Assembly (NCBI RefSeq): GCF_031127875.1
Contig: NZ_JARXIA010000024.1
Span: forward strand, 1 to 64,000
DNA: 64,000 bases
DNA from: Pelagicoccus sp. SDUM812005
GTDB lineage: Bacteria > Verrucomicrobiota > Verrucomicrobiia > Opitutales > Opitutaceae
Direction of reading: 5' to 3'
Positions 21,595-46,027 of the stretch are shown piece by piece. The notes beneath the pieces are model-generated. The model saw nothing but the letters and a program-made list of their open reading frames with translations, did not search any database and was not told where the DNA came from. The position numbers were made by a program, and so were the translations under genes. How positions within the stretch are numbered: position 1 is the stretch's first letter; every line of letters begins with the position of its first letter.

Positions 21595-22779
21595 TTACAA
21601 GCCCACCGAAGCCAGCTCCTTGCTCTTCCTCCGGTAGGCGCTGGGAGTCGTGTGTGTCAGCCGTTTGAATACGACGCTCATGTACTCGGGATGCTCGAAG
21701 CCGGCCATCTCGGCGATATGGGCCAACGAGTATTCCGTCTCAGTCAACATCTGCTTGATCTGGATGACCTGGGCTTGGCGAATCTCCACCTGTGGCGAGC
21801 GGCCCACGTATTGGCGAAACCGCTTTTCCAGCAAGCTGCGAGAAATATGCACCGCCTTGGCGACCTCTTCCACCGTGATCCCCTTGCAAGCCCGTTCCCG
21901 GATTAAGTTCAAGGCCTGAGCCACCGCTTGATCCTCCACCGCCATGATGCTGGTCGATCGCCGCGTCACCACCTCCAGCGGATCGATCAAGGTCTCCTCC
22001 TTGAAGTCTAGCGGATCGGCGCCCGCGATCATGGCCTCCAAAGCCGCACCCGCGGCTCGGGCGTACTCGGAAACATCGATCGGAATACTGGATACAGACG
22101 GAGCGCTCAGCTCGCAGCGGGCGCTGTCGTTGTTCACACCCAAGATAGCAACCTCCTCCGGCACCCGAAAATCCGCCTGCTGGCAAGCGTTCACGATGTG
22201 CACCGCCCGCAGATCGTTGCAGGCGAAAACCGCTACCGGCTTCGGCAAGGTCTTCAGCCACCTCGCCATCTCGTCCTCCTCCGCAAACTCCCAAGCGGGC
22301 TGGCTTACCCCTGGATAAACAGTCTCGAAGGTGGTGCACTTCTTGCCAGCCAAGGCCAGCCCTTCCACGAAGCCGTCCCGCCGCTCCTCCGACCAACGGT
22401 CCCCCTCGAATCCGCAGAACGCGAAATGCCGGAAACCCTTTTCCACGAAATGCTCCGCACCCAAATGCCCCGCCGCCACGTTGTTCGGGCGAAACTTGGG
22501 GCAGCCCGCTCGCAGCGAACTGGAGTCCGACAAGTCCACGCAAGCGATCCCCCGCTCCCGGGCCTTGCGAAAGAGCTCGTCGGAATTCTCCTTGCAGATG
22601 ATCCCGTCCCAGCCCTGGTCCAGCAGCCAGTCCGGATCCTCCGCCCCGCGAGCGAGATCGTCCACGAATACGTGCCAATTCGCGTTGAAGCGTTTGAACT
22701 TTGCCAGGCTGTGCAGAAGGTTGAGGTTTTCCTCCAGCCAGCCCCTTAAAACGATAGCTACACGGGGGCGGTCAATCAT
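21595..22779 (-). CDS. XylR-type transcriptional regulator (LacI-like sensor + AraC DNA-binding domain)
   Basis: 394 residues from the ATG at 22779 (MIDRPRVAIVLRG). Residues 5-275 form a periplasmic-binding-protein-like sugar sensor ('WDGIICKENS', 'VFACNDLRAVHIVNACQQ', 'VAILGVNNDSARCELSAPSVSS'). Residues 285-390 form an AraC-type double helix-turn-helix with 'ISRSLLEKRFRQYVGRSPQVEIRQ' in pieces and 'IAEMAGFEHPEYMSVVFKR'. This architecture is that of XylR. It is divergent from the epimerase and phosphorylase genes, so the inducer is probably a mannose-containing sugar; xylose is possible from homology alone. Confidence 0.88.
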   Translation of the reverse strand: MIDRPRVAIVLRGWLEENLNLLHSLAKFKRFNANWHVFVDDLARGAEDPDWLLDQGWDGIICKENSDELFRKARERGIACVDLSDSSSLRAGCPKFRPNNVAAGHLGAEHFVEKGFRHFAFCGFEGDRWSEERRDGFVEGLALAGKKCTTFETVYPGVSQPAWEFAEEDEMARWLKTLPKPVAVFACNDLRAVHIVNACQQADFRVPEEVAILGVNNDSARCELSAPSVSSIPIDVSEYARAAGAALEAMIAGADPLDFKEETLIDPLEVVTRRSTSIMAVEDQAVAQALNLIRERACKGITVEEVAKAVHISRSLLEKRFRQYVGRSPQVEIRQAQVIQIKQMLTETEYSLAHIAEMAGFEHPEYMSVVFKRLTHTTPSAYRRKSKELASVGL

Positions 22780-22835
22780 GGTTCGTACAGGTTCGAAAAG
22801 CAGTGGTGACTCCCCTCCCATCCCACAAAAACGTG

Positions 22836-22862
22836 AATTGAGCAAAGGAAATTTACTCAATT
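22836..22862. promoter_or_regulatory. Inverted repeat in the regulator/epimerase intergenic region
   Basis: AATTGAG (22836-22842) and CTCAATT (22856-22862) are exact inverted copies, centre-to-centre 20 bases apart (about two helical turns). They lie in the only AT-rich stretch between the divergent regulator and epimerase genes. It is a candidate operator for the XylR-type protein. Confidence 0.4.
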
Positions 22863-22983
22863 TCTCATTACAATTTAGATTAATTACGGCTATAACGGGA
22901 CCACAAGCTCACAAGACTCGCCGCAATCGAGCCCTCGCCCGCCAATAAACAAACACTCCGCCGCCCCAGCCCTCCTCCGACCG

Positions 22984-24180
22984 ATGCCCCCTTCCCCTCT
23001 CAAGACTTTCCAGCAGGAGCTCCAAGCGGAATTGTTCGAAAACATTCTGCCCTACTGGCCCCGCCTGCGTACCACCGACAGCTTCATCCCTGCGCTCGAT
23101 TCCCTCAACCAGCCCGTCGCCGAAACGCCGCTGGGCTTGGTCATGGTCTCCCGCCTGCTCTGGACCTACAGCCGCGCCTATTCGCTCTACGGGAAGAAGG
23201 AATACCGGAAACTCGCCGACCACGCCAAGCACGTGCTCTGTATAAAGTTTTCCGATACGGAAAACGGCGGCTACTACTGGACCCTCACCCCAGACGGGCA
23301 AGCCCTCGAAACCAAGAAGCAATGCTACGGGCAGGCCTTCTGCATCTACGCCTTCTCCGAGCACTACCACGCCACCCGAGAGCAGGACAGCCTCGATCGA
23401 GCCTACTCCCTCTTTCGCCTCGTGGAAGCGAAAGCCTGGGACCCAGCCAGCGGCGGCTACTTGGAATCCTTCGAGGCAGACTGGACTCCATTAGCGAAAA
23501 TGAAGCTCGGCGACGGGGACCTCGAAGCCCCCAAGACGATGAACAACCACCTGCACATCATCGAAGCCTTCGCCAACCTGCAAAAAATATCCCCCTCGCC
23601 TGAAGTCGAAGCCGCCTGCCGCCGCACCCTGCAAACCATCGCCGACCGTATCATCCTGCCGGATACTCCACGCTTTGGCCTATTCTACGACAAGGACTGG
23701 AAGCTCCTCGACCCAGTCGTTTCGCCCGGCCACGACATCGAAGGCAGCTGGCTCCTGCACGAAGCCGCCACAATCATCGGCGACCCGGAGCAGGAAAAAG
23801 AATTCCAGAAACTCGCCCTCGAAATGGCCGAGCAAGTCCTCCGCAGCGGAATCGACCCGCACGACCACGGCGTCCACGACGAATTCCATCCCGGCCAGCC
23901 CCCGAACGGCAGCAAGTGCTGGTGGCCTCAGGCCGAAGGAATGGTTGGCTTCTACAATGCGTATCAGCTTTCCGGAGACACCCGCTACCTCGAAGCCTGC
24001 CTGCAAACCTGGGAGTATATCAAAAGCGCCTTCATCGACCGAACCAACGGAGAATGGCTTTGGGGACGCCAGGCGGACGGACGCCCCATGGACAAGGAGA
24101 AAGCCGGCCCCTGGAAGTCTTCCTACCACAATGGCCGGGCCTGCTTCGAGCTTTTGGAGCGAATTCAACGGGTTAATTAG
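22984..24180 (+). CDS. AGE-family disaccharide 2-epimerase (cellobiose/mannobiose type)
   Basis: 398 residues, an (alpha/alpha)6 barrel of the N-acylglucosamine 2-epimerase family. Blocks typical of the cellobiose/mannobiose branch are visible: 'QCYGQAFCIYAFSEHY', 'NNHLHIIEAFANL', 'SPGHDIEGSWLLHEA' (catalytic His), 'CWWPQAEGMVGFYNAY', and 'PWKSSYHNGRACFELLERI' near the end. These enzymes convert the reducing-end mannose of beta-1,4-mannobiose to glucose. The gene directly downstream is a mannosylglucose phosphorylase, which consumes that product, so mannobiose is the favoured substrate over cellobiose. Confidence 0.88.
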   Translation: MPPSPLKTFQQELQAELFENILPYWPRLRTTDSFIPALDSLNQPVAETPLGLVMVSRLLWTYSRAYSLYGKKEYRKLADHAKHVLCIKFSDTENGGYYWTLTPDGQALETKKQCYGQAFCIYAFSEHYHATREQDSLDRAYSLFRLVEAKAWDPASGGYLESFEADWTPLAKMKLGDGDLEAPKTMNNHLHIIEAFANLQKISPSPEVEAACRRTLQTIADRIILPDTPRFGLFYDKDWKLLDPVVSPGHDIEGSWLLHEAATIIGDPEQEKEFQKLALEMAEQVLRSGIDPHDHGVHDEFHPGQPPNGSKCWWPQAEGMVGFYNAYQLSGDTRYLEACLQTWEYIKSAFIDRTNGEWLWGRQADGRPMDKEKAGPWKSSYHNGRACFELLERIQRVN

Positions 24181-24256
24181 AACGCCCCCTGTCGCTCCAA
24201 GATCCTCCCAGTAAAACGCCCCTCGAACCCATCATAATTATATACCTTTCGAACCA

Positions 24257-25480
24257 ATGAGTACCTACGAAACCCGCCTCAACCAACTCGTCGAAGCCCA
24301 AGAAGCTTTGCTCGCCCAGCCTAACGCGCCCGTCGAGCCCGGCAACGGAATCTTCCACCGCTACCAAAACCCGGTCCTCACCGAAAAGCACGCCCCTCTC
24401 TTCTGGTCCTACGACCTCAACCCCGAGACCAACCCGCACCTCATGGAGCGCATCGGCGTGCACTGCGCCTTCAACGCCGGCGCCATCCAGCTCGCCGGCA
24501 CGTTCTACGTCGTAGCCCGCGTCGAAGGAAACGACCGCAAGTCCTTCTTCGCCATCGCCGAAAGCCCCAACGGGGTCGATAACTTCCGCTTCTGGGACCA
24601 CCCCGTCACCCTGCCGGAGACAGAGGTGCCCGACACCAACGTCTACGACATGCGACTCACCCAGCACCAAGACGGCTGGATCTACGGACTCTTCTGCACC
24701 GAGCGCAAGGATCCCAACGCCGCCCCCTTCGACCTCTCCTCCGCGGTCGCCCAATGCGGCATCGCCCGCACCAAGGACCTCAAGACCTGGGAGCGCCTGC
24801 CCGACCTGAAAACTCCCTCCGCCCAGCAGCGAAACGTCGTGCTCCACCCCGAGTTCGTCGACGGCAAGTACGCCCTCTACACCCGCCCCCAAGACGGCTT
24901 CATCGACGCCGGCTCCGGCGGCGGCATCGGCTGGGGGCTTTGCGAGGATATGGCCAACGCGGTGGTGGAAAAGGAAACCATCATCGATTCCCGCGCCTAC
25001 CACACTATCAAGGAAGTGAAGAACGGCCAAGGCGACGCCCCCATCAAGACGCCCCAAGGCTGGCTGCACATCGCCCACGGCGTGCGCGGCTGCGCCAGCG
25101 GCCTGCGCTACGTAATCTACGCCTTCATGACTTCGCTGGAAGATCCCAGCAAGCTCACCCACTCGCCCGGCGGCTTCCTCATCGCCCCCGAAGGCGATGA
25201 GCTGGTGGGCGACGTCATGAACGTCGCCTTCACCAACGGAACTATCGTCACCGAATCCGGCGATGTCTACATCTACTACGCCTCCAGCGACACCCGCTTG
25301 CACGTGGCCACTTCCACGGTAGAGAAGCTCGTCGACTACGTCACCCACACGCCCGCCGACCCGCTCTACAGCGCCAAGTGCGTCGCCCAGCGCAACGAGC
25401 TCATCGACAAGAACCTCGCCTTCATGGCCAAGGCCTCGAGCCCCCTCATCGATCGCATCCACGCGCTGCGAGCCAAGTGA
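24257..25480 (+). CDS. GH130 phosphorylase, 4-O-beta-D-mannosyl-D-glucose phosphorylase type
   Basis: 407 residues, a five-bladed beta-propeller of glycoside hydrolase family 130, subgroup 1. The characteristic opening is '[22 protein letters not shown]', followed by '[19 protein letters not shown]', '[14 protein letters not shown]', '[19 protein letters not shown]' (catalytic Asp block), 'GGIGWGLCE', and '[14 protein letters not shown]'. The enzyme splits Man-beta-1,4-Glc with phosphate into mannose-1-phosphate and glucose in the cytoplasm. It lies 76 bases after the epimerase gene, completing the mannobiose pathway. A terminator follows at 25509. Confidence 0.92.
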
Positions 25481-25508
25481 ACCCCGTTCGTATTCATTTT
25501 ATCCACAC

Positions 25509-25541
25509 AAAAGGCGCCGGTGCGAAGCGGACGCCTTTTTC
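25509..25541 (+). terminator. Terminator after the GH130 gene
   Basis: AAAAGGCG (25509-25516) pairs with CGCCTTTT (25532-25539) with further inner pairing (CCG/CGG) and ends in a T-run, 28 bases after the stop. Confidence 0.75.
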
Positions 25542-25653
25542 CGTAGGCTCCCAAAGGCTCCGCCTTCGATTTCCTGAAGGGATTCAACAACCAGAATTGT
25601 TAACCTAACACCGTCTCCGATCACCCTCACCCCTTACCACAAAAAGAAAACAT

Positions 25654-27045
25654 ATGCAGACCAGCCCCGAATCTTCGCACAAAGCGCCACCTTTGAAGAT
25701 GGTAGAGAAACTCGGATTCGCCTCCGGAGACTTAGCATCCTGTCTCTACTTCGGCGTCTTCATGAATTTCCTGCCGATCTTCTACACCGACGTATTCGGG
25801 TTATCCGCTGCCGCACTCGGCACCATGATCCTCGTCACCCGCACCTGGGACTGGATCAACGACCCGATCATGGGAATGATCGCCGACCGCACCAAGAGCC
25901 GGATGGGCAAGTTCCGCCCGTGGCTCCTCTGGGTCCTTCCCTTTTGGGCGATCCTCGGCGTGCTCACCTTCACCACCTTCGACCTAAGCCCCACCGGCAA
26001 GCTCATCTACGCCTACAGCACCTACACCCTCCTAATGATGGCCTACACCGCCATCAACGTTCCCTACTCCGCCCTCATGGGCGTGATGACGCCGCGATCC
26101 GACCAGCGCACCATCCTTTCCTCCTTCCGCTTCCTCGGAGCCTTCGCCGGCGTCTTCATCGTAAGCACCACTCTCCAACACCTCGTCAAGTTCTTCGGCG
26201 ACGGCGACGAGCAATTTGGATACACCGCTACCATCGCCGTATTCGCAACGGCATCCTCGCTCCTTTTCATCACGACCTTCGTCACCACCAAGGAACGCGT
26301 CGCCCCGCCCAAGAACCAAAAGTCGTCCATCCTCAAGGACCTCGGAGCCGCTGCCAAAAACGGACCTTGGCGGGCCCTTATCCTCATCAGCGTGATGACC
26401 ATCCTCTGGATCGCCATCCGCGGTGGCGCCACCATCCACTTCTTCAAATACGTCTCCGGCAACGAACTATGGGGCGGAACCTTCCTCGCCGTCGGCAGCG
26501 CCGTCCAACTCGTAGGCGTCATGCTAACCAAGCAGTTCACCCAAGTGTTCGGCGGCAAAAAGAAGACCTTCATCTCCGTAACGCTCATCAATGCCGTCTT
26601 CCTCTTCACCTTCTACTTCATCCCCACCGACAATTTCTACCTGATCATGGGGCACCAAGCGATCAGCGCCTTCATGACGGCTCCCTTGATGGCCTTGTTC
26701 TGGTCGATGATCGCCGACAGCGCCGACTACGGGCAATGGAAGCTCGGCCAACGTACGACCGGCCTCATCTTCTCCACCGGAACCTCCTCCATGAAGATCG
26801 GTTGGTCGATCGGCCCAGCCATTTCCATGTACCTGCTCACCTACTTCGGCTACCAGGCCAACGTCGACCAATCCCCGGAAACCGTCGAAGGCCTCAAGCT
26901 CATCATGTCCTTCATCCCCGCAGGCGTCGCCGTGCTCGCCGCCGGATCCGTTCTCTTCTACCGCATCGACGCCAAAATGGAGAAGGAAATGGAAGCCGCC
27001 ATCGCTGCCGAAGCCAAGGCCGACGCGGAGATGCCGACCTGCTAG
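25654..27045 (+). CDS. GPH-family (MelB-like) sugar transporter
   Basis: 463 residues with about 12 membrane helices. The glycoside-pentoside-hexuronide signature blocks are present: 'KLGFASGDLASCLYFGVF', 'WDWINDPIMGMIADRTKSRMGKFRPWLL' (in pieces) and 'NVPYSALMGVMTPRSDQRT'. These are cation symporters for oligosaccharides. Position after the epimerase and phosphorylase suggests it brings mannobiose or short manno-oligosaccharides into the cytoplasm. A paralogue lies convergently at 27258. Confidence 0.9.
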   Translation: MQTSPESSHKAPPLKMVEKLGFASGDLASCLYFGVFMNFLPIFYTDVFGLSAAALGTMILVTRTWDWINDPIMGMIADRTKSRMGKFRPWLLWVLPFWAILGVLTFTTFDLSPTGKLIYAYSTYTLLMMAYTAINVPYSALMGVMTPRSDQRTILSSFRFLGAFAGVFIVSTTLQHLVKFFGDGDEQFGYTATIAVFATASSLLFITTFVTTKERVAPPKNQKSSILKDLGAAAKNGPWRALILISVMTILWIAIRGGATIHFFKYVSGNELWGGTFLAVGSAVQLVGVMLTKQFTQVFGGKKKTFISVTLINAVFLFTFYFIPTDNFYLIMGHQAISAFMTAPLMALFWSMIADSADYGQWKLGQRTTGLIFSTGTSSMKIGWSIGPAISMYLLTYFGYQANVDQSPETVEGLKLIMSFIPAGVAVLAAGSVLFYRIDAKMEKEMEAAIAAEAKADAEMPTC

Positions 27046-27257: not shown

Positions 27258-28703
27258 CTAGCTCTCGACCGTGCCTTCCGCTTCCTTGCGGGTAAGGAGT
27301 TCGTTCTCCATCTGCAGCTCCATCTTCCGGTTGATTCCATAGGTCAGCACCACCAAAGCCGCAATCGCCGCCAAGCCAGCCGGGAAGAAGGACATCATCA
27401 GCCGAAGCCCCTCGATCGTCCGCTCCGACTGCAAAACGTTGTCCTGATAACCATAGTAGCTCAGCGAATAAGCCGCCAGCGCCGGGCCCACCGCCCAGCC
27501 TAGCTTCATGGAAAAGGTCCCGGCCGAAAACGTCAGTCCGGTGAAACGGCGACCGAACTTCCACTCGGAATAGTCCGCCGTATCCGCGATCATCGACCAG
27601 AACAAAGGCATCAAGGGTCCCGTGATAATCGACAAGCTAATCCCAATCGTAAACATCAGCGTCACGTCCCCCGGTCCGCAGAGAAAGAACCCGGTTCCCA
27701 AGATGGCGCTTAGAACCGTCAACGAGAAGAAGGCGTTCTTTTTGCCGCGGAACAAGTCGGTAAAGTGCTTGGTGAAGTAGACCCCTGCGATGGTGCCCAC
27801 CGATCCGAGCACGTTGTACCAAGTGGCCAACTTGGTGAACCGCGCGTCGCTCTCCATGTCCGCCACCACGTAGTACTTGAAGTAATACAGCTGAGCCGCG
27901 TCGCGCATGGCGATCCACATGACCGTACCGATTCCCACGAAGATCAAGGCCACCCAAGGCTTGTTCTTGAACAGCTGAGCGAAGTCCTTCTTGAGGTCCA
28001 TCTCCTGCCCCTTGGGAGGCTGTACCCGCTCCTTGGTGCCTGCGAAGGTGGCTAGGAAAAGAAAGGAGGCGCAAATCCCATAGATGACCATCGACAAGAT
28101 GTAGCCCTGCTGGGTCTGCGTCCCGTCCTCGCTGCCGCCCAGCCCTACGACCAGATAAAGGATCGTCGCCTGCACCACCAGGTTCGCCGAAAACGAACCG
28201 TAGAAGCGAAACGAGGACAGCACCGTTCGCTCCGCGGAGTGAGGCGTCATCACGCCCATCAAAGCGCCGTAAGGAATGTTGATCGCCGTGTAGCCCAACA
28301 TCGCCAGCGAGTAGGTCGCGTAAACATAGACGATGGTCCAAGTGTCATCCAGCTCCGGCACCGTGAAGATGAGCACCCCACTCACCGCAAAGGGCAGGAT
28401 CATCCAACGCAGCCACGGACGGAACTTCCCGTGCGGCGATTCGGTACGGTCACAGATCACGCCCATCAACGGATCCGTAAACGCGTCGAAGACGCGCGTC
28501 ACCCACAGCATGGTCCCGATGATGGCCGCCTCGATTCCTATGATATCGGTGTAGAAGAACATCAGGAAGGAGGAGAATACCTTGAAGTAGAACACCGACG
28601 CCATATCACCGGCGGCATAGGCGAAGTTCTCCTTCATCGTGATGATCTTCTCAGGAACATGCGTCGCTCCTGAACTGCTGGAACCGTTTTGGATTGAGCT
28701 CAT
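27258..28703 (-). CDS. GPH-family (MelB-like) sugar transporter, paralogue
   Basis: 481 residues, about 12 membrane helices, clearly related to the convergent transporter at 25654. Shared blocks are 'YAAGDMASVFYFKVFSSFL', 'FDAFTDPLMGVICDRTESPHGKFRPWL' (in pieces), 'NIPYGALMGVMTPHSAERTVLSSFRF' and 'WSMIADTADYSEWKFGRRFTGL'. It differs in the loop near residue 275, which carries an extra charged insert (DMESDARFTKLATW). Two related symporters probably handle different oligosaccharides of one polymer. Its promoter lies within 28704-28948. Confidence 0.9.
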   Translation of the reverse strand: MSSIQNGSSSSGATHVPEKIITMKENFAYAAGDMASVFYFKVFSSFLMFFYTDIIGIEAAIIGTMLWVTRVFDAFTDPLMGVICDRTESPHGKFRPWLRWMILPFAVSGVLIFTVPELDDTWTIVYVYATYSLAMLGYTAINIPYGALMGVMTPHSAERTVLSSFRFYGSFSANLVVQATILYLVVGLGGSEDGTQTQQGYILSMVIYGICASFLFLATFAGTKERVQPPKGQEMDLKKDFAQLFKNKPWVALIFVGIGTVMWIAMRDAAQLYYFKYYVVADMESDARFTKLATWYNVLGSVGTIAGVYFTKHFTDLFRGKKNAFFSLTVLSAILGTGFFLCGPGDVTLMFTIGISLSIITGPLMPLFWSMIADTADYSEWKFGRRFTGLTFSAGTFSMKLGWAVGPALAAYSLSYYGYQDNVLQSERTIEGLRLMMSFFPAGLAAIAALVVLTYGINRKMELQMENELLTRKEAEGTVES

Positions 28704-28948: not shown

Positions 28949-31900
28949 TCAGTTCGATCCGCGCCAAACCTGAGATCTCACGCTCAAGACAAGCGGCCCC
29001 GCCCCTTCGACCGGCTCCAGCTCGAAACGATAAACTCCAGATTCCAAGGCAACCGAGACCGCAGCGTCCTTATCGTGCAGGACCTTATCCTGGGAATCGC
29101 GCAAAACCAGGACCTCCGCTTGCGATGAAACATCGTTCGCACGCCAGTCCCCATTAGCTCCGACCTGCGTTTCGCTTCCGTTCTCAGCAAGAGCAAAAAC
29201 ACGGATCCGAGTGTCTCGGATTCCCATGCCTAAGCTGGCGCCTTCGCCCCAACAAAGAACCAGGGCCGGCTCTTCCACCTCGATTTCGACCTCCACGGAA
29301 AGCGTTTCGCCCTCTTGCAGGTCCGCATGGAAATCAGCGCCCAACAACGGCCCGACCCCTGCCATTCCGATACGATCGGAAGCAAGCACCCCTTGCTCTT
29401 CTCGACTCGGAAAAACCAGGTAAACCCCATCCTCTTCCTTGTAGCTCTCATCGTCGAAGCCAAAAATGCCCCGAACCCGTAAAGGCATGCCTTCCGAATC
29501 GAAACGCGTCAAGGTACTCGCCTCCCCATTGCGCAGCGTCGCCACGTGGCGGATCTCCTTTATCAACCCCGAGAAGCCGGAGTTCGCATGCCTCTGGTTA
29601 TGGGCGCGCAAAAAGGCCTCGACTCCCACCCGCGCGCCTAACGTGCGACCGATGAAATCGTCCGCCGCAACATGGATACCTCCATAGAGACGCGACACCC
29701 CTGCCTGGTCAGCGGCATCGTAGTAGGTCGCCCATTGAAGCGTTACATCGTCGCTTGGACCGTATTCAAATTCCAAGAACTCGCCCTTGGGAAAATGAAA
29801 CTCTCCCATTCCCCCCGGAAAGAACGGGCTCCCCGTCAAAAGCGTCATGACCTCTGCCCCCGTCCGGCTAAAGGTGCTATGCCCCGAAACATAAGCCGCA
29901 AACGCTGGAGTCACAAAGGTCCCGCGCTGATAGGGAAACCAATCCTCTGCAAGGATCCATTCAACTCCACCGAAATCGTTGCGCGAATCTTCCGGCTCAC
30001 CAGCCCATGCAAAAACCGCGATCTTGCCAAGGTCATCCGCCAGATGCGCATGCCGCTCCCCCTCCGCGGAACTGGCTTCCGTAACGACCTCAATCAATCC
30101 GGGCTCCAGCACGATCCCTTGCGGATGGTAGGACAAGCCATCCGGATCCGAAGACTGCCCCAGTCCCGCCAAGGCGCGGATCATGGAGATCGGCCGCGAG
30201 TAGTCGTATTGAGCCTTCAAAGTCCATGCCGCAACCGCTGCGTCGTGCATCCCGCCATTGAGAGCGAGATAAGCCCGTACATCCCACTCGAGCTCCGACA
30301 ATTCCTCGCCCTTCCCCATGTAACGACGCTCGAAACCTTCCATTTCCGTCACTTCGTTGTGCAGGGTATTCCAATGCCCCGGAGGCGTTTCAGAAGCCGG
30401 ACCATCAGCCCAGTACTCGGCTAAGATTCGTCCATAATCCGCCAGCTTCACCCAGTTCGCTTCATAGGCCTCGTTCGTCGCCGGATTAACAGCTCGCCCC
30501 ACTCCATCGTTGCTAGCCAAGGGATTGTTCAAACGCGTCCCAGGCGAAATATCGATGAGCGTATCGTCAGACGGGTCCAGATAAGAAGAGTATCGCAAAA
30601 CCTCCACCGCAGCTGCGACGAATTCGTCATGCGTGTCCGTTCCCCACAAGGGCGGCGGCCCCGGATCGAAGGCGATCGTATTCGCAGAAGTCTTACGCAT
30701 CGCAAAGGTCTCAACCTCCCGCCAACTCACACCTAAAAAACTCTGCACCAAGGTTCCGAGAGGTATCCCATTCTGGGATACGGCATAGTCAAAGGCGAGC
30801 GGTTGCCAACGATTGATGTCCACCATCTGAGTACCCGGCAAATCGAGGACGAGCGGATCGTTCACCGCCTCGTAACCATTCGTATCCGCGTAGTCGTTCA
30901 GTTCATTGGCCCCATCGTCGAAGTTTTCGTCCAAAACGCCCTTGCCGATTCGATTTCCAACTGCCGCAGCGCTCATGCCTTCCAAAGACAAGTTATCAGG
31001 GTCGTACCCCAGCCGTTCCATCAACCACCTAAACCCGAACAAAGATCGCTCTGCGCCTGGACTATCCTTGTATCGCTGATTCAGTACGGTAAACGCCGCA
31101 TGGCTAATGGCCTCCCGCTGAGCGGCCAGACGCTCTCCTCCCCAATGCTCCGGCAAGACGTCCTCGCGGTGAAACATGGGTTTCGCGTTCGTCCAAGCCT
31201 CTTCCTCATAAGCCCAAAAAGCATCCCACATCGCCGCGGAAACATGGTACAGGTTTCGCCCATGCTTCGTCGGATTCGGAAAATCCTTGCGGATCGCATC
31301 GAGCATAAACTCGTTCCAGACTCGAGCGACAGAGCGCCCATCAAGATCCAGGTCCAAGTCCACGACTGCCGCTGAGCTGTAAACGCTGCCCTGGCTGTTG
31401 GTGACCTTCGCTCGGTATTCGCCAGCGTCATACGGCGTCAGTTTCTTAACGTGGAATTCAAAGCCATGCCCACCAGGAATCGCTTCTCCATCCTTCTCCC
31501 ACGTCACTACCGGAGCAGGATCCCCGCTCGCCTCAACTGCTATCCTCAACGCGTCACCCACGTAAAAGCGTCCCCCCACTGGATCGCGTTCCACCTTAGG
31601 GATTCCGAGAGCAACGACTGGCTCGAGGATTTCGAGCACCTGATTGACCGCCACATTCTCCAAGGTCTGCCTCGTACCGGACGGCCAAGTCACTTCGATC
31701 GAATCCACCTTGCTCGCTCCCCCCAGCCCAAAATGCAAATAGGGCTCACGCTGTCCGAGGTAAGCGTTGCTGGGATTGTAGAGCTGCGTCTGTATTCGTT
31801 CACCTGCGGCAACCTTCACAATACAACCATATCCATCCCGATTCGAAGAAGTCCCCTCGAACGAGATCCTCAGATAATTATTTCCGTTACCCGAAGCATC

Positions 31901-33208
31901 GTTTCGGTACAGGATCGGATGATCCCCGGAATTCGTTATAAAGAGATCTTCGTCACCATCCTCTTCGTAATCAAAAACGACTACAGCCTTCCCCAACTTT
32001 CGATCAACCAAACCTGCAGCAACCGTTCTATTGAAAAAACGACCATCGGATTGGTTAATAAAAAGAGTGGTCGGATCGTCGACGGCGTCGACATATGGGT
32101 TCGTAAGCGGATTTAGCCCGGCAGAGACAATGGATCCATTGGTAACGACGAGATCCGAATCACCATCGTTGTCGTACTCAAAAAACGAGGTTCCCCACCC
32201 CCAACCGGTTCGCGATACGCCAGCCTCAGCAGCTACTTCCCTAAACGTTCGATTTCCTAGATACTTATAAAGTTTATTCCCTGTGTGCGTTCCGTCCCGA
32301 TTGATCGAGAATTGATCGAGAATGGAGCTAACGAAAACATCGAGCTTTCCGTCTTGGTCATAATCGACGATCGCGACCCCCATACCATTTTCATCCAAAC
32401 CCATGTTAGACTCATCGGTCGATTCCGTAAACGTCCCGTCTCCATTGTTCCAATACATCTTACTTGTGCCAAAATCCGACACAAGCACGAGGTCAGGCCA
32501 CCCGTCCCCATCCAAGTCACCCCATCCACTGGCAAACCCAAAGTGCATGCTCCCCTTGCCTGGTTGCGTAAGGCCTGCTTGCTCAGTGACATTTTCGAAA
32601 TGCGCAGGCTGGTCCGCACCCCTGTTTCGTAGGAGTACAGAGTGCTTATCGTTATCATCGTTGCTGCGCACACCCCATTCAGAAACATACACGTCCAGAT
32701 AGCCATCGAGATCGAAGTCTACAATGCCCACGCTGTATCCCCGGTGCGGCTCTAGCGTCGTTTCTACGGCAGCTCCTCGAACAACGGCTTCTTCCGCAAA
32801 TACCCCGGTGCCGTCATTGATAAATAGATAAAATCGGTTCCCCAGTCTCGGAGATACAAACAGATCCGCGTCACCATCATTGTCGAAGTCCCCCGAGCCA
32901 AAACCACCCACGTTCAGTATGTTTCCTAGGCCGCGGGAAGCCCCTTCCTCGGTAAATGTCCCATTGCCCTTGTTCACAAAAAGCAAGGGAGTCTTTTCGT
33001 CCCTAGCCACCAAAATATCCGTGAACCCATCGCCATTTACATCGACTGCCGCTGCCCCGCCGTGCTTGGTACTCTTCGAATCTGCTTGTACGTAATCGAG
33101 GCCAGATCCGAGCGTACGATCGCTAAACTCAGCCATCGCCCAATTCGGGGACAGGAGGAGGTATCCTAAAAGGACAAAAAACGAATAAAGTAAGAAGAAA
33201 CGGTTCAT
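28949..33208 (-). CDS. Exported FG-GAP / ASPIC-UnbV / Ig / vanadium-haloperoxidase-like fusion
   Basis: 1419 residues from the ATG at 33208 (MNRFFLLYSFFVLLGYLLL, signal peptide). Residues 30-435 carry seven calcium-loop motifs (DVNGDGFTD, DFDNDGDAD, DFDLDGYLD, DLDGDGWPD, DYDQDGKLD, EYDNDGDSD, DYEEDGDED) of an FG-GAP propeller. An ASPIC/UnbV module follows ('AYLGQREPYLHFGLGG'), then an Ig-like domain (535-620). Residues 620-1215 form a PAP2/vanadium-haloperoxidase fold with all three anion-binding motifs intact: K998-x6-R1005-P, S1108-G-H1110 and S-R1173-x5-H1179-x3-D. A beta-rich tail ends it. Catalysis could be halide oxidation or phosphate ester hydrolysis. It follows a TonB receptor gene on the same strand after 90 bases. 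Confidence 0.85.
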   Translation of the reverse strand: MNRFFLLYSFFVLLGYLLLSPNWAMAEFSDRTLGSGLDYVQADSKSTKHGGAAAVDVNGDGFTDILVARDEKTPLLFVNKGNGTFTEEGASRGLGNILNVGGFGSGDFDNDGDADLFVSPRLGNRFYLFINDGTGVFAEEAVVRGAAVETTLEPHRGYSVGIVDFDLDGYLDVYVSEWGVRSNDDNDKHSVLLRNRGADQPAHFENVTEQAGLTQPGKGSMHFGFASGWGDLDGDGWPDLVLVSDFGTSKMYWNNGDGTFTESTDESNMGLDENGMGVAIVDYDQDGKLDVFVSSILDQFSINRDGTHTGNKLYKYLGNRTFREVAAEAGVSRTGWGWGTSFFEYDNDGDSDLVVTNGSIVSAGLNPLTNPYVDAVDDPTTLFINQSDGRFFNRTVAAGLVDRKLGKAVVVFDYEEDGDEDLFITNSGDHPILYRNDASGNGNNYLRISFEGTSSNRDGYGCIVKVAAGERIQTQLYNPSNAYLGQREPYLHFGLGGASKVDSIEVTWPSGTRQTLENVAVNQVLEILEPVVALGIPKVERDPVGGRFYVGDALRIAVEASGDPAPVVTWEKDGEAIPGGHGFEFHVKKLTPYDAGEYRAKVTNSQGSVYSSAAVVDLDLDLDGRSVARVWNEFMLDAIRKDFPNPTKHGRNLYHVSAAMWDAFWAYEEEAWTNAKPMFHREDVLPEHWGGERLAAQREAISHAAFTVLNQRYKDSPGAERSLFGFRWLMERLGYDPDNLSLEGMSAAAVGNRIGKGVLDENFDDGANELNDYADTNGYEAVNDPLVLDLPGTQMVDINRWQPLAFDYAVSQNGIPLGTLVQSFLGVSWREVETFAMRKTSANTIAFDPGPPPLWGTDTHDEFVAAAVEVLRYSSYLDPSDDTLIDISPGTRLNNPLASNDGVGRAVNPATNEAYEANWVKLADYGRILAEYWADGPASETPPGHWNTLHNEVTEMEGFERRYMGKGEELSELEWDVRAYLALNGGMHDAAVAAWTLKAQYDYSRPISMIRALAGLGQSSDPDGLSYHPQGIVLEPGLIEVVTEASSAEGERHAHLADDLGKIAVFAWAGEPEDSRNDFGGVEWILAEDWFPYQRGTFVTPAFAAYVSGHSTFSRTGAEVMTLLTGSPFFPGGMGEFHFPKGEFLEFEYGPSDDVTLQWATYYDAADQAGVSRLYGGIHVAADDFIGRTLGARVGVEAFLRAHNQRHANSGFSGLIKEIRHVATLRNGEASTLTRFDSEGMPLRVRGIFGFDDESYKEEDGVYLVFPSREEQGVLASDRIGMAGVGPLLGADFHADLQEGETLSVEVEIEVEEPALVLCWGEGASLGMGIRDTRIRVFALAENGSETQVGANGDWRANDVSSQAEVLVLRDSQDKVLHDKDAAVSVALESGVYRFELEPVEGAGPLVLSVRSQVWRGSN

Positions 33209-33240
33209 GGCGCTAGGCCGAAGCAGACTTTCCAAAACGA

Positions 33241-33267
33241 TAAAACGGCGCCCGTTAAGGCGCCGTT
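33241..33267 (-). terminator. Terminator between the TonB receptor and the haloperoxidase-like gene
   Basis: On the minus strand, AACGGCGC (33267-33260) pairs with GCGCCGTT (33251-33244) around an 8-base loop and ends in TTTTA. It is placed 32 bases after the receptor stop and 33 bases before the next start, so it may be a partial terminator within an operon. Confidence 0.78.
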
Positions 33268-33298
33268 AGATAAAACAATACTACTAATCGCTCAAGTT

Positions 33299-36200
33299 CT
33301 AGAACGAGAAGGTATTAGCAAGCACCCAGGTCCTTTGCGGAGCGATACGAGATGTCGCGGCCGAACCGTCTACGCTAACAGTGACCGGGATCAGCTCCTT
33401 GTCCGCTGTCACGTTGCTTACGTTGAGCTGGATCTTCCAGTCGACGCTGTCGGAAAGCTTGACCGTGTAGTTAGCCCAAAGGTCGAGCGACGTCTGGGAT
33501 GGTCCCATGTAGGGGTTGCTGATGTCGTACAATTCGTCGCCGATTTCGAGTCCGAACTCCTCGATCGCTTCGGTAGCTGTCGTGCCGGGGTACCCGATTG
33601 CAACCTCGTCCTGCCAACGAATCGCGCCACCGACATTGAGTCCCGCCAAGCGGCCCTCGCGGAAGCTGTAGTTGGTGATCAAGTTTGCTCTCCATTCGCG
33701 AAGCTCGGGAACCTGCGATCGATTAATAAGAACCCCTGCAAGATAGTTTGCATAGAACTCGCTTCCGTACTTGTAACGAAGGGTCTCCGGATCCGACGAC
33801 TCACCGTTATACAGCTTCAAGTCGCCATAGGGGCCCTTGTACAGTTCCCAGCGCTCTTTCACGTAATTCGCGTAGGAGCTTGCAATATTGAAGCGTTGGG
33901 CATTGATCTTAGCCGCATTGAACATGATGTTCCAGTTGTCCGTCGGCTGGTAGAAAAGCTCAATCTCAGTACCTTTGGATACGAAATCACTGGTAACGGC
34001 GAAACTTGCCGGCTCACCTGCCCATGCATTGGCTTGGTCCGGGCCACCCCAAGTGTCATCGCCTGTAAGCGCGTCCCAATTCTGTCCCCAGAATTCTTCG
34101 ATCGCCTTACTGGGGCGATTAGCCGGATCGAACACAGCGGCGAGCGCTGCCTCTTGGCGATTGTAGGCAGCCTGAACTGCAGCCGCCTGGGCCTCGGGTG
34201 ATAGACCTGCCCGATCTTGCGCCCAACTGGTACCGTCAAACTCGCCGGGGTTCGGCTCGTAGCGGAGAACCTCAATCTCAGGATTGATCAAAGGATTCGT
34301 TGTCGCGTCGAATGGAGCAGTCGGATCCATCAAAGCGTAGTTTTCGGTGAAGCCATGGACGCCTTTTTGCGTTTGCAAACCACCCCAACGAACCAAGCCC
34401 TCTCCAAATCCAATCATGTAGGAATTTCCAAACGAGGAGTCAGACAAGGTAGCGTTCTTAACGTTCGTTTCGTACCGGTTGATCTTGAGGTGCAACCGGC
34501 TGTCCGCAGATGCGATAGTGAGGCCGAACTCTTCGGTATCGCCAATCTGGTTGGGTACCGCAACACCGTCGATGCCACGACGGCTCGCATCGGGCGAGAA
34601 ATTCTCCGAGTTCGCATAGGACAAGCTCAGCTTCGTACCTCCCAAAGCGTCGGATACGGACTGAGGAGCATGCCAAACCAGACTCATGGTCGAGGTGGTT
34701 TCGCTTACCGAATTGAAGGTCGCTCCATTGGTGCTGTTAGCTGCATCCGAAGCGCTTGTCGGCAGGTCCCAGTTGTTAGCGTACGGTAGCACTGACCCCG
34801 CTCGCGATCCCGCCGGAGCAGAGCCGGCGTTCAGCGCATCAGAGGAATCCTTACGCACTGCGAACATGGGGACAAGGGTATCGTTGAACAACCAGCTTTG
34901 CCAGATGAGGGCAGACGACTCAATATCATCCCTCGACTTCGTGGCGCGCTTGTAGAGCTCCGCCAAATCCCCGTTATCATAGCTGATAATAGAGAAGGGA
35001 GTGTTCACTCCTGCGCTTGTCTCAATCGTCAGCTGCGTATCATGCGGAACAAGACGATGCTGGATCGGAGGAATGTACGCGCCTGATGCAGAACTCCTTC
35101 CCGACAGGTCACCGCTCAAGTAGACTACGTTCGACAAATAGCGGGCCGCGCCGTCGATCGATCCTGTGCCAATACCGTCGGCTACACTACGAACCCAAGT
35201 CGTATCCAGCTTGTTGATCTCTTGCTTTGAATAGAGACCCGTAAACAGGTGGCGACCGAGGAATCCTAGAGATTCATTGCCAGAATCCCGGAAATCGTAT
35301 TCATAGAATCCGGTTACGCGGAAAGAATCTCTATCAGTGCTATCGTTGTGGTTGTTTTGAGTTTCACCACCCGCAATCGCTCTTCCCGCATTCGGATTAA
35401 TGCCGCCATCTGGATAATGCGATACGATATCAACCGAGATAGACTGTCCCCAATTATCCATGATATTCACCTGGCCATCCGTATAGTCCTGGTTATCGAA
35501 ACCAACTTCCAGGCCGAGAGCATCGTCCATCCAAGTGTGCGAATAGGTGATATTATAAGCCTCCCACTCCTGCCACTCACGCTTGTTGTCGCCATCAAGC
35601 ATGTTATTATAGAAGTCAAAGATGGTCGGATCCGAAAGCGTTTTGCTCTTATAACCCCCGATACTCGAGTACGGAAGCCCCACCTTCGCAGCAGCATCGC
35701 TCGCGTCGTCAATTCCGAGATAATTAACTCCGTCCACCGCTGCCATCTTGTAGTAAGAGGGCGTTCCCGCTCCATCGTAGAAAGCAACTGGCCCATTGAA
35801 GATACGGCCGAGGACTTCATTGCCGATGTATTGGCTTCCTGGCTCTCCCGAATTGGCGAATGCCATGAGCTCCGGAGAGGTGAAGGTCTGCTTAGCGAGA
35901 CCCGTATTAGCAGAATTAAACCAAGGAGTTATACGGTCAATCGGCGGCAATACGCGCGGCCGGTTCGCCATGATATCTCCCTCTTCGTAGTTGGCTGTGA
36001 ACCTGCCACGAGAGGAATCCGCGCTCAAGAACTCGGGAGCCCACTGAGCGGACAAGTAGATACGGCTATTTTCTTCGAACGCTTGTTTTTGGCGGAAGCC
36101 CTTTTCGGACTCGAGGGCCGCAAAACGCACCGCCAACTGATCCTCGATCAGAACATGGTTCAAATCAACCGTAGCGCGCCAAGTTCCGTCATTGCCGAAA

Positions 36201-36811
36201 TCGATACCAACGGAACCTTCATTTGCGAAATTCGCTGTTTTTAGTCCGGCATTGATAACGCCCGCTGGACTCCCCAAACCAAAGAGAACGGAGTTCGGAC
36301 CGCGCTGAATATCGATGCGATTAACGTTGAAAGAATCCCAAGGAATATCCGTAGCGTAGAAGCCGCGCGTGCTATCCGCAGCAGCCAAGCCACGCACACG
36401 ATTCGCGGCGCTAGGATTCTTGCGTTGGCTATCAGTATCGACGCGCCCACCGTCTCCACCTCCCGCGAAATTACCAGCGGAACCACCCACCTCCGTGCCG
36501 AGGGTGTAAAGTAGCAGCGACTCGTTGTCAGTAGATCCGGTATCCTCAAGAAACTCCTCAGTCACAACAGAGATCGCTGTCCCAATGTCCTTAAGGTCAG
36601 TTCGGATACGAGTACCGGCAAGCGTCGAAGTCGCCCGGTATCCCGATTCCTCTCCACCTTGAACGGTGAAGGGCGAAAGGTTATAAACATCCTCATCCTC
36701 TTCTTGGGCGGAAACAAGAGGAGCAACTAGAAGTGCCGCGCCCAAAGCGATTGCTCCGGATGCAGATCTAGGACGTGCATATCTGCTTATTAGTTTGATC
36801 GATTTATTCAT
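33299..36811 (-). CDS. TonB-dependent outer-membrane receptor
   Basis: 1170 residues from the ATG at 36811 (MNKSIKLISRYARPRS). A signal peptide ends near VSAQ, and a TonB-box-like stretch 'VYNLSPFTVQ' follows, a form common in Verrucomicrobiota. The plug domain is at about 45-200 ('ISVVTEEFLEDTG', 'DIQRGPNSVLFGLGSPAGVINA' in pieces), and the rest is a 22-strand barrel ending in a terminal aromatic, 'WVLANTFSF'. It imports a large or scarce ligand using TonB energy. The neighbour, a haloperoxidase-like fusion, suggests the two handle the same exogenous compound, but the substrate cannot be read from sequence. Confidence 0.93.
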   Translation of the reverse strand: MNKSIKLISRYARPRSASGAIALGAALLVAPLVSAQEEDEDVYNLSPFTVQGGEESGYRATSTLAGTRIRTDLKDIGTAISVVTEEFLEDTGSTDNESLLLYTLGTEVGGSAGNFAGGGDGGRVDTDSQRKNPSAANRVRGLAAADSTRGFYATDIPWDSFNVNRIDIQRGPNSVLFGLGSPAGVINAGLKTANFANEGSVGIDFGNDGTWRATVDLNHVLIEDQLAVRFAALESEKGFRQKQAFEENSRIYLSAQWAPEFLSADSSRGRFTANYEEGDIMANRPRVLPPIDRITPWFNSANTGLAKQTFTSPELMAFANSGEPGSQYIGNEVLGRIFNGPVAFYDGAGTPSYYKMAAVDGVNYLGIDDASDAAAKVGLPYSSIGGYKSKTLSDPTIFDFYNNMLDGDNKREWQEWEAYNITYSHTWMDDALGLEVGFDNQDYTDGQVNIMDNWGQSISVDIVSHYPDGGINPNAGRAIAGGETQNNHNDSTDRDSFRVTGFYEYDFRDSGNESLGFLGRHLFTGLYSKQEINKLDTTWVRSVADGIGTGSIDGAARYLSNVVYLSGDLSGRSSASGAYIPPIQHRLVPHDTQLTIETSAGVNTPFSIISYDNGDLAELYKRATKSRDDIESSALIWQSWLFNDTLVPMFAVRKDSSDALNAGSAPAGSRAGSVLPYANNWDLPTSASDAANSTNGATFNSVSETTSTMSLVWHAPQSVSDALGGTKLSLSYANSENFSPDASRRGIDGVAVPNQIGDTEEFGLTIASADSRLHLKINRYETNVKNATLSDSSFGNSYMIGFGEGLVRWGGLQTQKGVHGFTENYALMDPTAPFDATTNPLINPEIEVLRYEPNPGEFDGTSWAQDRAGLSPEAQAAAVQAAYNRQEAALAAVFDPANRPSKAIEEFWGQNWDALTGDDTWGGPDQANAWAGEPASFAVTSDFVSKGTEIELFYQPTDNWNIMFNAAKINAQRFNIASSYANYVKERWELYKGPYGDLKLYNGESSDPETLRYKYGSEFYANYLAGVLINRSQVPELREWRANLITNYSFREGRLAGLNVGGAIRWQDEVAIGYPGTTATEAIEEFGLEIGDELYDISNPYMGPSQTSLDLWANYTVKLSDSVDWKIQLNVSNVTADKELIPVTVSVDGSAATSRIAPQRTWVLANTFSF

Positions 36812-37188: not shown

Positions 37189-37902
37189 ATGTACCGCATC
37201 CTTCTCGCCCTCTTCGCCGCATGGGCTCTCTGCTCGCCCCTTCTAGGGAAGAGCTCGCTGAGGATCGCCGTCGCCTCGAACTTCCATCCAACCCTCGTCC
37301 AAATCGCCGCCGCTTACCAAGAAAGCCATCCGGACACCGAACTCACCCTCATCCCCGGATCCAGCGGCAAACTTTACGCCCAGATCGCCAACGGGGCCAC
37401 CTTCGACGCCTTCTTCTCGGCCGACTCGGAACGCCCCCAGAAGCTCGAAAACGCTGGGATCGCCCTCGCCGACACCCGCTTCACCTTCGCCCTCGGCATC
37501 CTCGCCTTCTGGCAACCGGGATCCCCTGCCGCCGACCTTTCCAAAACCCAAACCCTCGCCCTCGCCAACCCCAAGCTAGCCCCCTTCGGCCTCGCCGCCA
37601 CGCAAGCCCGCGACTCCCTCCCCTTTCCCCCGCACCGCAGCGTCACCGCCTCCAGCGTCTCCCAAGCCTTCACCTTCGCCCAAAGCGGCGCTGCCGATTC
37701 CGCCTTCGTATCCTACTCCCAACTACGCCAGCTCGAGATTCCTGCAGCCGAATACATCTTGATCGATCCCGAACGCTACGCCCCTATCGAACAGCAAGCC
37801 ATCGCCTTAAAAGCGAGCCACCAGCTACTCGAGTTCCTCGCCTACTGCCAAAGCCCCGAAGCGCAAGCCACCATCGCCGCAGCCGGCTACCGAGTCCCAT
37901 GA
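37189..37902 (+). CDS. modA: Molybdate ABC transporter substrate-binding protein
   Basis: 237 residues with a signal peptide (1-21, ending near LLGKS). The ModA fold is visible as 'LRIAVASNFHPTLVQIAAAYQ', 'LTLIPGSSGKLYAQIANGATFDAFFSAD' in pieces, 'YSQLRQLEIPAAEYILI' and 'CQSPEAQATIAAAGY'. Ser residues in 'ASN' and 'GSSG' are the usual oxyanion ligands. It binds molybdate or tungstate in the periplasm and delivers it to ModBC. Its TGA overlaps the modB ATG. Confidence 0.93.
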   Translation: MYRILLALFAAWALCSPLLGKSSLRIAVASNFHPTLVQIAAAYQESHPDTELTLIPGSSGKLYAQIANGATFDAFFSADSERPQKLENAGIALADTRFTFALGILAFWQPGSPAADLSKTQTLALANPKLAPFGLAATQARDSLPFPPHRSVTASSVSQAFTFAQSGAADSAFVSYSQLRQLEIPAAEYILIDPERYAPIEQQAIALKASHQLLEFLAYCQSPEAQATIAAAGYRVP

Positions 37903-38579
37903 ACGTATCCGATATCTGGATTCCCCTCGCCCTCACCCTGAAGCTGGCCGCCGTCACCACCGTCCTGCTCCTGCTGCTCTGCGCCCCTCTGGCCTGGTGG
38001 CTAGCCCACACCCGCTCCCGCGTCCGCCCCCTTTTCGAGGCTGTCCTCTCCCTGCCCATCGTGCTCCCGCCCAGCGTCCTCGGCTTCTACCTGCTCGTCG
38101 CCCTTTCCCCCACCGGCCCCATCGGCAAACTCTCAGAAGCCCTAGGCGGCCCAGCCCTCGTCTTTTCCTTCACCGGACTCGTCATCGGTTCCCTCATCTA
38201 CTCCCTGCCCTTCGTCGCCCAGCCCCTGCAAAACGCCTTCTCCGCCCTCCCCCGAGATCAGCTCGAAGCAGCCAGCACCCTCGGAGCCTCCCCCGTCGAC
38301 CGCTTCTTCAGCATCGCCCTCCCGCAAGCCAAGCGCGGCATCCTCTCCGCCGCCGTGCTCGGCTTCGCCCACACCCTTGGCGAATTCGGGGTCGTGCTCA
38401 TGATCGGCGGCAGCATCCCGGGCGAAACCCGCACCCTCTCCATCGCTATCTACGAAAGCGTGGAAATGCTCGACTACGGCCAAGCCCATCTCCTCGCCGG
38501 CACCGTCCTGCTGATCAGCTTCCTGCTGCTCGTATTCATCTACACCCTCAACCGGGCCAGCAGCCCCTTCAAGCGATGA
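37899..38579 (+). CDS. modB: Molybdate ABC transporter permease
   Basis: 226 residues starting at the ATG that overlaps the modA stop (ATGA at 37899-37902). Five or six membrane helices; the cytoplasmic coupling (EAA) loop reads 'EAASTLGASPVDRFFSIALPQAKRGI' in pieces, followed by 'GFAHTLGEFGVVLMIGGSIPGETRTL', the hallmark of ModB. It forms the membrane channel with ModC. The same ATGA coupling joins it to modC, so the three subunits are translated together. Confidence 0.95.
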   Translation: MNVSDIWIPLALTLKLAAVTTVLLLLLCAPLAWWLAHTRSRVRPLFEAVLSLPIVLPPSVLGFYLLVALSPTGPIGKLSEALGGPALVFSFTGLVIGSLIYSLPFVAQPLQNAFSALPRDQLEAASTLGASPVDRFFSIALPQAKRGILSAAVLGFAHTLGEFGVVLMIGGSIPGETRTLSIAIYESVEMLDYGQAHLLAGTVLLISFLLLVFIYTLNRASSPFKR

Positions 38580-45913: not shown

Positions 45914-46027
45914 AAGAGGGGCGGAGCTACGGATCGCTTCGCGAAGAAACGAATCAGGATAGAAAAATAAATCGAAGGGCCCAACCATCGGGCCAAAGCG
46001 GCCCACCCGCAATATTGAGCGCTCACA

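Follow-up and report, generated by a model that had tools for sequence, protein, structure and literature searches.

Vanadium haloperoxidases (VHPOs) and class A phosphatases have their anion-binding motifs in common, and to our knowledge it is poorly understood what most bacterial VHPOs are for, Streptomyces excepted. The described enzymes closest to the subject of this work are the bacterial NapH1, XhnO11, NapH3 and Zobellia enzymes and the fungal VCPO. A second described family, represented by murine CRTAC1 (9etn) and its bacterial relatives, combines a propeller with an ASPIC module, and in the parts of the literature consulted no assigned role for the bacterial CRTAC1-type proteins was met. 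A third point of comparison is SusC/SusD, where a TonB receptor and an exported partner lie beside carbohydrate genes. Here, we analyze a stretch of 64,000 nucleotides from Pelagicoccus sp. SDUM812005 (contig NZ_JARXIA010000024.1, positions 1 to 64,000; hereafter the window) that encodes a fusion of a CRTAC1-type propeller with a putative VHPO domain, next to the gene of a TonB-dependent receptor. The domain resembles the known VHPOs in fold, vanadate ligands and the Asp292 and Trp350 positions, at 17-24% identity in structural alignment; unlike them, it and part of its relatives have a CRTAC1-type propeller, either in the same protein or as a neighbouring gene, near importers. The propeller and ASPIC parts are as in the CRTAC1 family; unlike CRTAC1, the fusion adds an Ig and a haloperoxidase domain and adjoins a TonB receptor. 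The likeness to SusC/SusD is one of analogy, but the partner in the window is a propeller; the scanned genes around the pair gave no SusD match, in a search that did not extend to other parts of the genome. The parts each belong to known families, and no description of a VHPO-propeller pairing was found in the literature searched.

The fusion gene lies on the minus strand (28949..33208); its open reading frame spans 28949-33235, and the product of 1419 residues starts at the ATG at 33208. From the N-terminus the protein consists of a Sec-type signal, the CRTAC1-type propeller with ASPIC module (residues 27-530; 31619..33130), an Ig domain of the I-set type with linkers (residues 531-620; 31349..31618), the VHPO domain (residues 621-1215; 29564..31348) and a C-terminal tail (residues 1216-1419; 28952..29563), all encoded on the minus strand. 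Seven calcium-type loops of the pattern Dx[DN]xDG lie at residues 56, 107, 164, 231, 282, 344 and 413, and each of the motifs K998-x6-R1005-P, S1108-G-H1110 and S1172-R1173-x5-H1179-x3-D1183 occurs once. Above cut-off, Pfam reports FG-GAP_3, UnbV_ASPIC (459-525), I-set (538-615) and DUF6851 (656-803). A Pfam scan of the C-terminal stretch of about 200 residues gave no match, and an NCBIfam scan of the fusion at E up to 0.1 named no family. By eye and by a crude pattern, the N-terminus is a plain Sec-type signal without a lipobox, and the protein is likely exported; the same crude pattern finds a lipobox-like stretch in 4 of 30 fusion or VHPO frames (L034, L041, L046 and L050; L labels denote loci). 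The receptor gene (33299..36811, minus strand, ATG at 36811; 1170 residues) lies upstream. Its Pfam match is the Plug domain alone (32.9 bits, cut-off 23.9), and its six NCBIfam matches are siderophore-receptor models far under their cut-offs, with no SusC model among them. A sequence-only reading of this locus had described an exported protein of 1419 residues with seven loops, ASPIC, Ig and catalytic domains and intact motifs, preceded on the same strand by a TonB receptor of 1170 residues; all of this was borne out, loops and motifs included. That reading had made no mention of the C-terminal tail, nor of the intergenic hairpin and the downstream carbohydrate genes described below.

By modelled fold and by residues, the catalytic domain is a VHPO. 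An AlphaFold2 model of residues 621-1215, built from 56 sequences, reached a predicted local distance difference test score (pLDDT) of 93.6 and a predicted template modelling score of 0.94. Its best structural match is the vanadium chloroperoxidase NapH1 (3w35/3w36; Z 34.4 over 438 residues, root-mean-square deviation (rmsd) 2.3), followed by XhnO11 (9l8x; Z 34.2), NapH3 (8cxl; Z 33.3), the Zobellia iodoperoxidase (4cit/4usz; Z 29.3) and the fungal VCPO (1vnc; Z 23.9). In the model the two-helix-bundle fold of VHPOs extends over the whole 595 residues. A single-sequence search with the catalytic stretch gave no VHPO match, and a profile search was used instead. The profile matches solved VHPOs, with the F-x4-SGH stretch aligned to the Zobellia enzyme, and it places D292, W350, K353 and R360 of VCPO at D935, W995, K998 and R1005. 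The VCPO vanadate ligands K353, R360, S402, G403, H404, R490 and H496 correspond to K998, R1005, S1108, G1109, H1110, R1173 and H1179, and the Phe397 position of VCPO corresponds to F1103. In alignment A2, which holds the window and 55 of 80 named loci described below, D935, W995, K998, R1005, F1103, S1108, H1110, R1173 and H1179 are identical in all 56 rows, and G1109 and D1183 in 55 of 56. The window and 29 relatives likewise keep the K, R, SGH, R, H and D positions, while six of these sequences have Ala in place of the Ser that precedes the last Arg. Since the Pfam matches to VCPO_2nd (residues 1079-1210; 24.5 bits, cut-off 27) and PAP2 (15.3 bits, cut-off 27.2) fall short, the assignment rests on structure model and profile match; the homologue in L022 reaches 27.4 bits with VCPO_2nd.

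The sequence-only reading had left halogenation and dephosphorylation side by side, and had suggested modelling the domain. The confident model of a whole two-bundle VHPO, with all motif residues kept in relatives, leans to a haloperoxidase, although fold and residues do not settle the choice between the two activities. As a phosphatase, the enzyme would bind phosphate in place of vanadate and dephosphorylate an extracytoplasmic (sugar) phosphate ester for import. The class A phosphatase motifs KX6RP, SGH and SRX5HX3D are all present in the window domain, apo-VCPO is able to dephosphorylate (PDB 3bb0, title), and the sugar importers found near the enzyme would fit simply. We nevertheless regard this as unlikely. 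The compact single-bundle plan of about 200-250 residues is not matched by the 595-residue domain, and class A acid phosphatases align at far lower scores over about a third of it (Z 10.8-12.9, 192-201 residues), so that we reject a plain class A phosphatase on fold. In addition, the positions of Trp350 and Phe397, named as putative halide-site residues in the available part of a review that leaves halide choice undecided (PMC9144378), are invariant; according to the same part, the Zobellia enzyme retains the Phe397 position. Halide oxidation by the fusion enzyme would be in line with the model. A VHPO homologue with another chemistry, as in NapH3, which by its PDB title performs a rearrangement without halogenation, is in our view improbable. 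NapH3 is among the closest structures, but the alignments show no SGH His in NapH3 and XhnO11, whereas all 56 rows of the window family keep it.

The N-terminal half is, as modelled, a CRTAC1-type propeller-ASPIC module followed by an Ig domain. Residues 27-620 were modelled at pLDDT 90.9, and this model is closest to murine CRTAC1 (9etn; Z 42.5 over 454 residues, rmsd 2.3), the next match having Z 31.8. The second Foldseek match of the 27-620 model is a sugar-processing fungal enzyme, aldos-2-ulose dehydratase (4a7k, E 1.7e-9). It might hint at sugar binding by the propeller, and we keep it as a lead because many unrelated propellers score alike.

It is this propeller, fused or as a separate gene, that is the wider partner of the enzyme, rather than the receptor. 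Matches at E up to 1e-100 were found in 18 of 115 genomes searched (own genome included); in 15 of these 18 a single frame encodes both propeller and VHPO, with three such frames in the own genome. A second, named set comprises the best 80 of at least 568 relatives among at least 583 pattern matches; it leans to near kin, being the best of a longer list, and it partly repeats genomes of the 115-genome search (for example L062 and L032), so that the two sets are not independent. The closest named relatives of the window VHPO are from Pelagicoccus. Fusions make up 20 of the 80 loci; in 14 more a CRTAC1-type frame lies no further than 300 bases away on the same strand, and 4 have such a frame nearby but arranged differently. 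Of the 14 same-strand partners, two are weak or short: in L106 the propeller seems split over frames, and L125 has a frame of 192 residues, with full-length propeller genes farther off on the other strand. Around unfused VHPOs a propeller gene occupies 14 of 107 immediate neighbour slots versus 5 of 382 other slots (Fisher p 1.2e-6); this test, which used frames of at least 600 bases, also counts 14 loci, but with L115 and L121 (opposite strand) in place of L106 and L125. Under Pfam, five of six separate partner genes carry FG-GAP and ASPIC, and the sixth (L100) FG-GAP only. On the VHPO tree 20 of 21 fused rows fall into one starred clade with one non-fused member, and 14 of 18 adjacent rows into one clade of Chloroflexota and Actinomycetota with four rows cut by contig ends; the state of being linked to a propeller needs at least five changes. 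On viral contigs, 15 pattern matches were found, none of which encodes a relative. In six Myxococcota loci (L090, L093, L102, L116, L119 and L122) the VHPO has an N-terminal extension of roughly 370-445 residues, without a Pfam match in L090, the one scanned.

Importers recur beside the enzyme and can be of two kinds, a TonB receptor in Opitutales or a sugar ATP-binding cassette (ABC) importer in Chloroflexota and Acidimicrobiia. Of 28 fusion loci, 27 are assessable (L047 is at a contig end); L056 (no propeller), L058 (VHPO alone) and L059-L061 (propeller only) are not counted as fusions. A TonB receptor is the direct same-strand neighbour in 11 of the 27 (window, L022, L032-L036, L038, L041, L053 and L054) and stands one gene off in five, with a TPR protein (L039, L040, L042, L043) or a sulfatase (L048) in between; receptors unlike the one labelled P0002 may have escaped this count. 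Adjacency is kept in both gene orders, receptor first in the window, L022, L032, L035, L053 and L054 and fusion first in L033, L034, L036, L038 and L041. In the named set, 6 of 20 fused loci have a same-strand receptor of the window type no more than 2 kb away, with several of the loci cut by contig ends; among the 60 unfused loci there is none. All 14 Chloroflexota and Acidimicrobiia loci with VHPO and propeller contain clusters c3 (representative Peripla_BP_4) and/or c4 (BPD_transp_2), which were found in none of the 42 named loci without propeller (21 of them cut by contig ends). A Pfam tally over 79 of the 112 frames listed for these 14 loci gave 11 Peripla_BP_4, 9 BPD_transp_2, 7 ABC_tran, and 3 each of FGGY, ROK and xylose-isomerase-like. 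Just after the propeller gene lies a conserved gene of cluster c8 in L096 (6956-8332) and five other Chloroflexota or Acidimicrobiia loci; two scanned members had no Pfam match, and by eye they resemble M24/creatinase-type peptidases.

The window itself has carbohydrate genes. The next gene downstream of the fusion encodes an MFS_2 (sugar-type) symporter (27258..28703, minus strand), followed at 21595..27045 by genes for a second MFS_2 symporter, a GH130 protein and a GlcNAc 2-epimerase family protein (all three plus strand) and an AraC-type regulator with a sugar-binding domain (minus strand). The MFS_2 symporter cluster recurs in five loci (window, L032, L039, L040 and L043), and the downstream symporter is possibly a later step of the same pathway. 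Because sugar ABC genes occur in 14 of 14 loci and carbohydrate genes in the window, carbohydrate uptake is a common setting, to which the enzyme may be functionally linked.

Receptor and propeller are also connected within the genome and by their history. Fifteen ASPIC genes, with 19 domain hits, were found in the own genome. Six of its receptors adjoin an ASPIC gene, four of them on the same strand, and all six fall into one 10-member clade (support 100) of a FastTree tree of 65 receptors, which covers those among the matches listed and has long branches; none of 500 label shuffles was as clustered. Two of the six ASPIC neighbours are VHPO fusions (window and L022); the other four (L025, L026, L027 and L029) have FG-GAP and ASPIC but no VHPO match in the Pfam scan, so that membership of the receptor clade follows the propeller more closely than the enzyme. 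Two cases point the other way: the receptors paired in L039-L043 belong to a different branch, and in L058, described below, a receptor adjoins an unfused VHPO and no propeller. Proteins of one family, about 810 residues long and by eye with a polytopic N-terminus and a TPR-like end, are encoded close to a CRTAC1-type gene or a receptor in six loci (L033:15588-18014, L026, L027, L029, L034 and L036), two scanned members being without Pfam match.

The window locus is a mosaic. Among 16 loci with a receptor, the VHPO tree groups the window with same-genus L032, L033, L034 and L036 (100/98), while the propeller and receptor trees place it with L032 and L035, the latter from another genus (100/99 and 100/100). 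Approximately unbiased tests, with groups named after the trees were seen, reject the exchanged groupings (p 2.5e-4 for the VHPO, 4.2e-6 for the propeller and 6.3e-6 for the receptor). Identities agree: to L035 the window has 74% in the propeller, 73% in the receptor and 65% in the VHPO, versus 58/55/53%, 52/52/53% and 78/78/74% to L033/L034/L036, of which L034 is the Pelagicoccus mobilis locus (L068 in the named set). In sliding windows the ranking flips between residues 551 and 592, inside the Ig domain. Gene order tracks the split, with the receptor first in the window, L032 and L035 and the fusion first in L033, L034, L036 and L038. It appears that receptor and propeller were exchanged together, while the VHPO stayed; judged by these comparisons, the outcome of the exchange is a receptor matched to its propeller. 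Such a swap of modules can serve as a natural experiment to tell what recognises the receptor.

We tentatively propose, at a confidence that stays short of an even chance, that the fusion is an uptake-coupled extracytoplasmic VHPO which oxidises a carbohydrate-containing substrate before import, with the propeller docking or capturing at the receptor. The propeller-ASPIC module would capture the substrate and/or dock on an importer, here the neighbouring TonB receptor, and the Ig domain would act as a linker that brings the enzyme to the receptor. From H2O2 and halide, the vanadate-loaded VHPO would then make hypohalite or a bound oxidant, which might oxidise, halogenate or loosen the substrate, possibly a glycoside or a glycan decorated with phenol or sulfate. 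What is released would be imported by the receptor and subsequently by the sugar symporter. Beside the sugar ABC importer of Chloroflexota and Acidimicrobiia, enzyme and propeller would act likewise as separate proteins. Since other phyla keep enzyme and propeller beside sugar importers, this would be a so far undescribed combination of enzyme and uptake, not an isolated case. A broader reading, which we consider doubtful, makes CRTAC1-type propellers a general, interchangeable capture module of bacterial uptake in the part of SusD, with the VHPO as one cargo that would pre-process glycoconjugates oxidatively at the importer; it draws on the dedicated receptor clade in Opitutales and the sugar ABC importers in Chloroflexota and Acidimicrobiia.

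Several observations weigh against uptake-coupled oxidation. No propeller is present in 42 of the 80 named VHPO loci, 21 of them with flanks of 3 kb or more on either side and the other 21 cut by contig ends, and the linkage counts are not independent because linked loci cluster by descent on the VHPO tree. In L058 (6735-12465) a TonB receptor adjoins an unfused VHPO of 713 residues, and a propeller gene is absent. Within the own genome, the strands differ in two of the six ASPIC-receptor pairs, of which one is divergent (L027) and one convergent (L029). Since receptor and propeller lie side by side, their joint exchange is no proof of binding. Between the receptor and fusion genes, a gap of 90 bases holds a terminator-like hairpin (33267-33244, minus strand; hairpin scan), which may be chance because 12 such sites were found versus 9.1 (standard deviation 2.9) expected. 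Enzyme activity and export to the surface are assumptions of the proposal, and no precedent for a haloperoxidase in sugar uptake was found in the literature searched. Finally, 11 of the 27 fusion loci have no receptor within one gene, and for that reason we reject a fixed operon of receptor and enzyme as the core of the arrangement. The proposal of the sequence-only reading, an enzyme with its own receptor, has to be amended accordingly: the two are neighbours or one gene apart in a part of the loci, and the receptor is optional. It had named non-neighbouring homologues or a collapsed active site as grounds for refutation; neither was seen, as the pairing recurs elsewhere and the domain models confidently as a whole VHPO fold with its motif residues kept.

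Two further explanations would separate the enzyme from the importers. In one, it serves defence or detoxification, making hypohalite against competitors or removing H2O2 and iodide from algal hosts, and the importers are unrelated. The vanadium iodoperoxidase of Zobellia is induced on fresh brown alga and, in the available part of the source, is discussed as a means of coping with algal defence (PMC9296495), and the host genus includes named marine members. We hold this rather unlikely, as it leaves unexplained the sugar ABC genes in all 14 Chloroflexota and Acidimicrobiia loci and the receptor in 16 of 27 fusion loci. In the other, the receptor lies nearby through inherited gene order that carries no function. 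A single genus or family supplies most of the receptor-adjacent loci, contiguity could explain the joint exchange, and the hairpin separates the genes; adjacency in both gene orders and the clustering of ASPIC-adjacent receptors, matched in none of the shuffles, speak against it, and we give it little credence.

If uptake-coupled oxidation holds, haloperoxidases would serve nutrient acquisition besides secondary metabolism and algal defence. The fused or adjacent pair near importers in several phyla gives both protein families a joint, testable role, namely nutrient oxidation before uptake. No paper pairing a vanadium haloperoxidase with CRTAC1, FG-GAP or UnbV was found in a search that left most subscription papers outside, nor one joining three of CRTAC1, SusD, TonB-dependent receptor and FG-GAP repeat. 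For a haloperoxidase in polysaccharide utilization loci, PMC12188728 has the terms in its reference list only; in the available part of PMC13274419 no CRTAC1 or FG-GAP was found, and in that of PMC3174227 UnbV and TonB are merely listed among many paralogues. A CRTAC1-type gene has been noted beside hydrazine-synthase homologues (PMC12758564), likewise next to genes of an extracytoplasmic redox enzyme; there the enzyme is another one, and the available part of that paper describes no fusion or receptor.

Two further features of the surroundings are recorded here. Divergent beside the receptor-fusion pair lie molybdate-type ABC genes (37189-39640, plus strand) with an SBP_bac_11 protein. They stand beside the pair in four same-genus loci (window, L032, L033 and L036), and L062 has an ABC_tran and TOBE homologue; an oxyanion importer at this place might bear on a vanadate enzyme. 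Farther along, the window carries a xylanase-type glycoside hydrolase family 10 gene at 44780-46012 on the minus strand.

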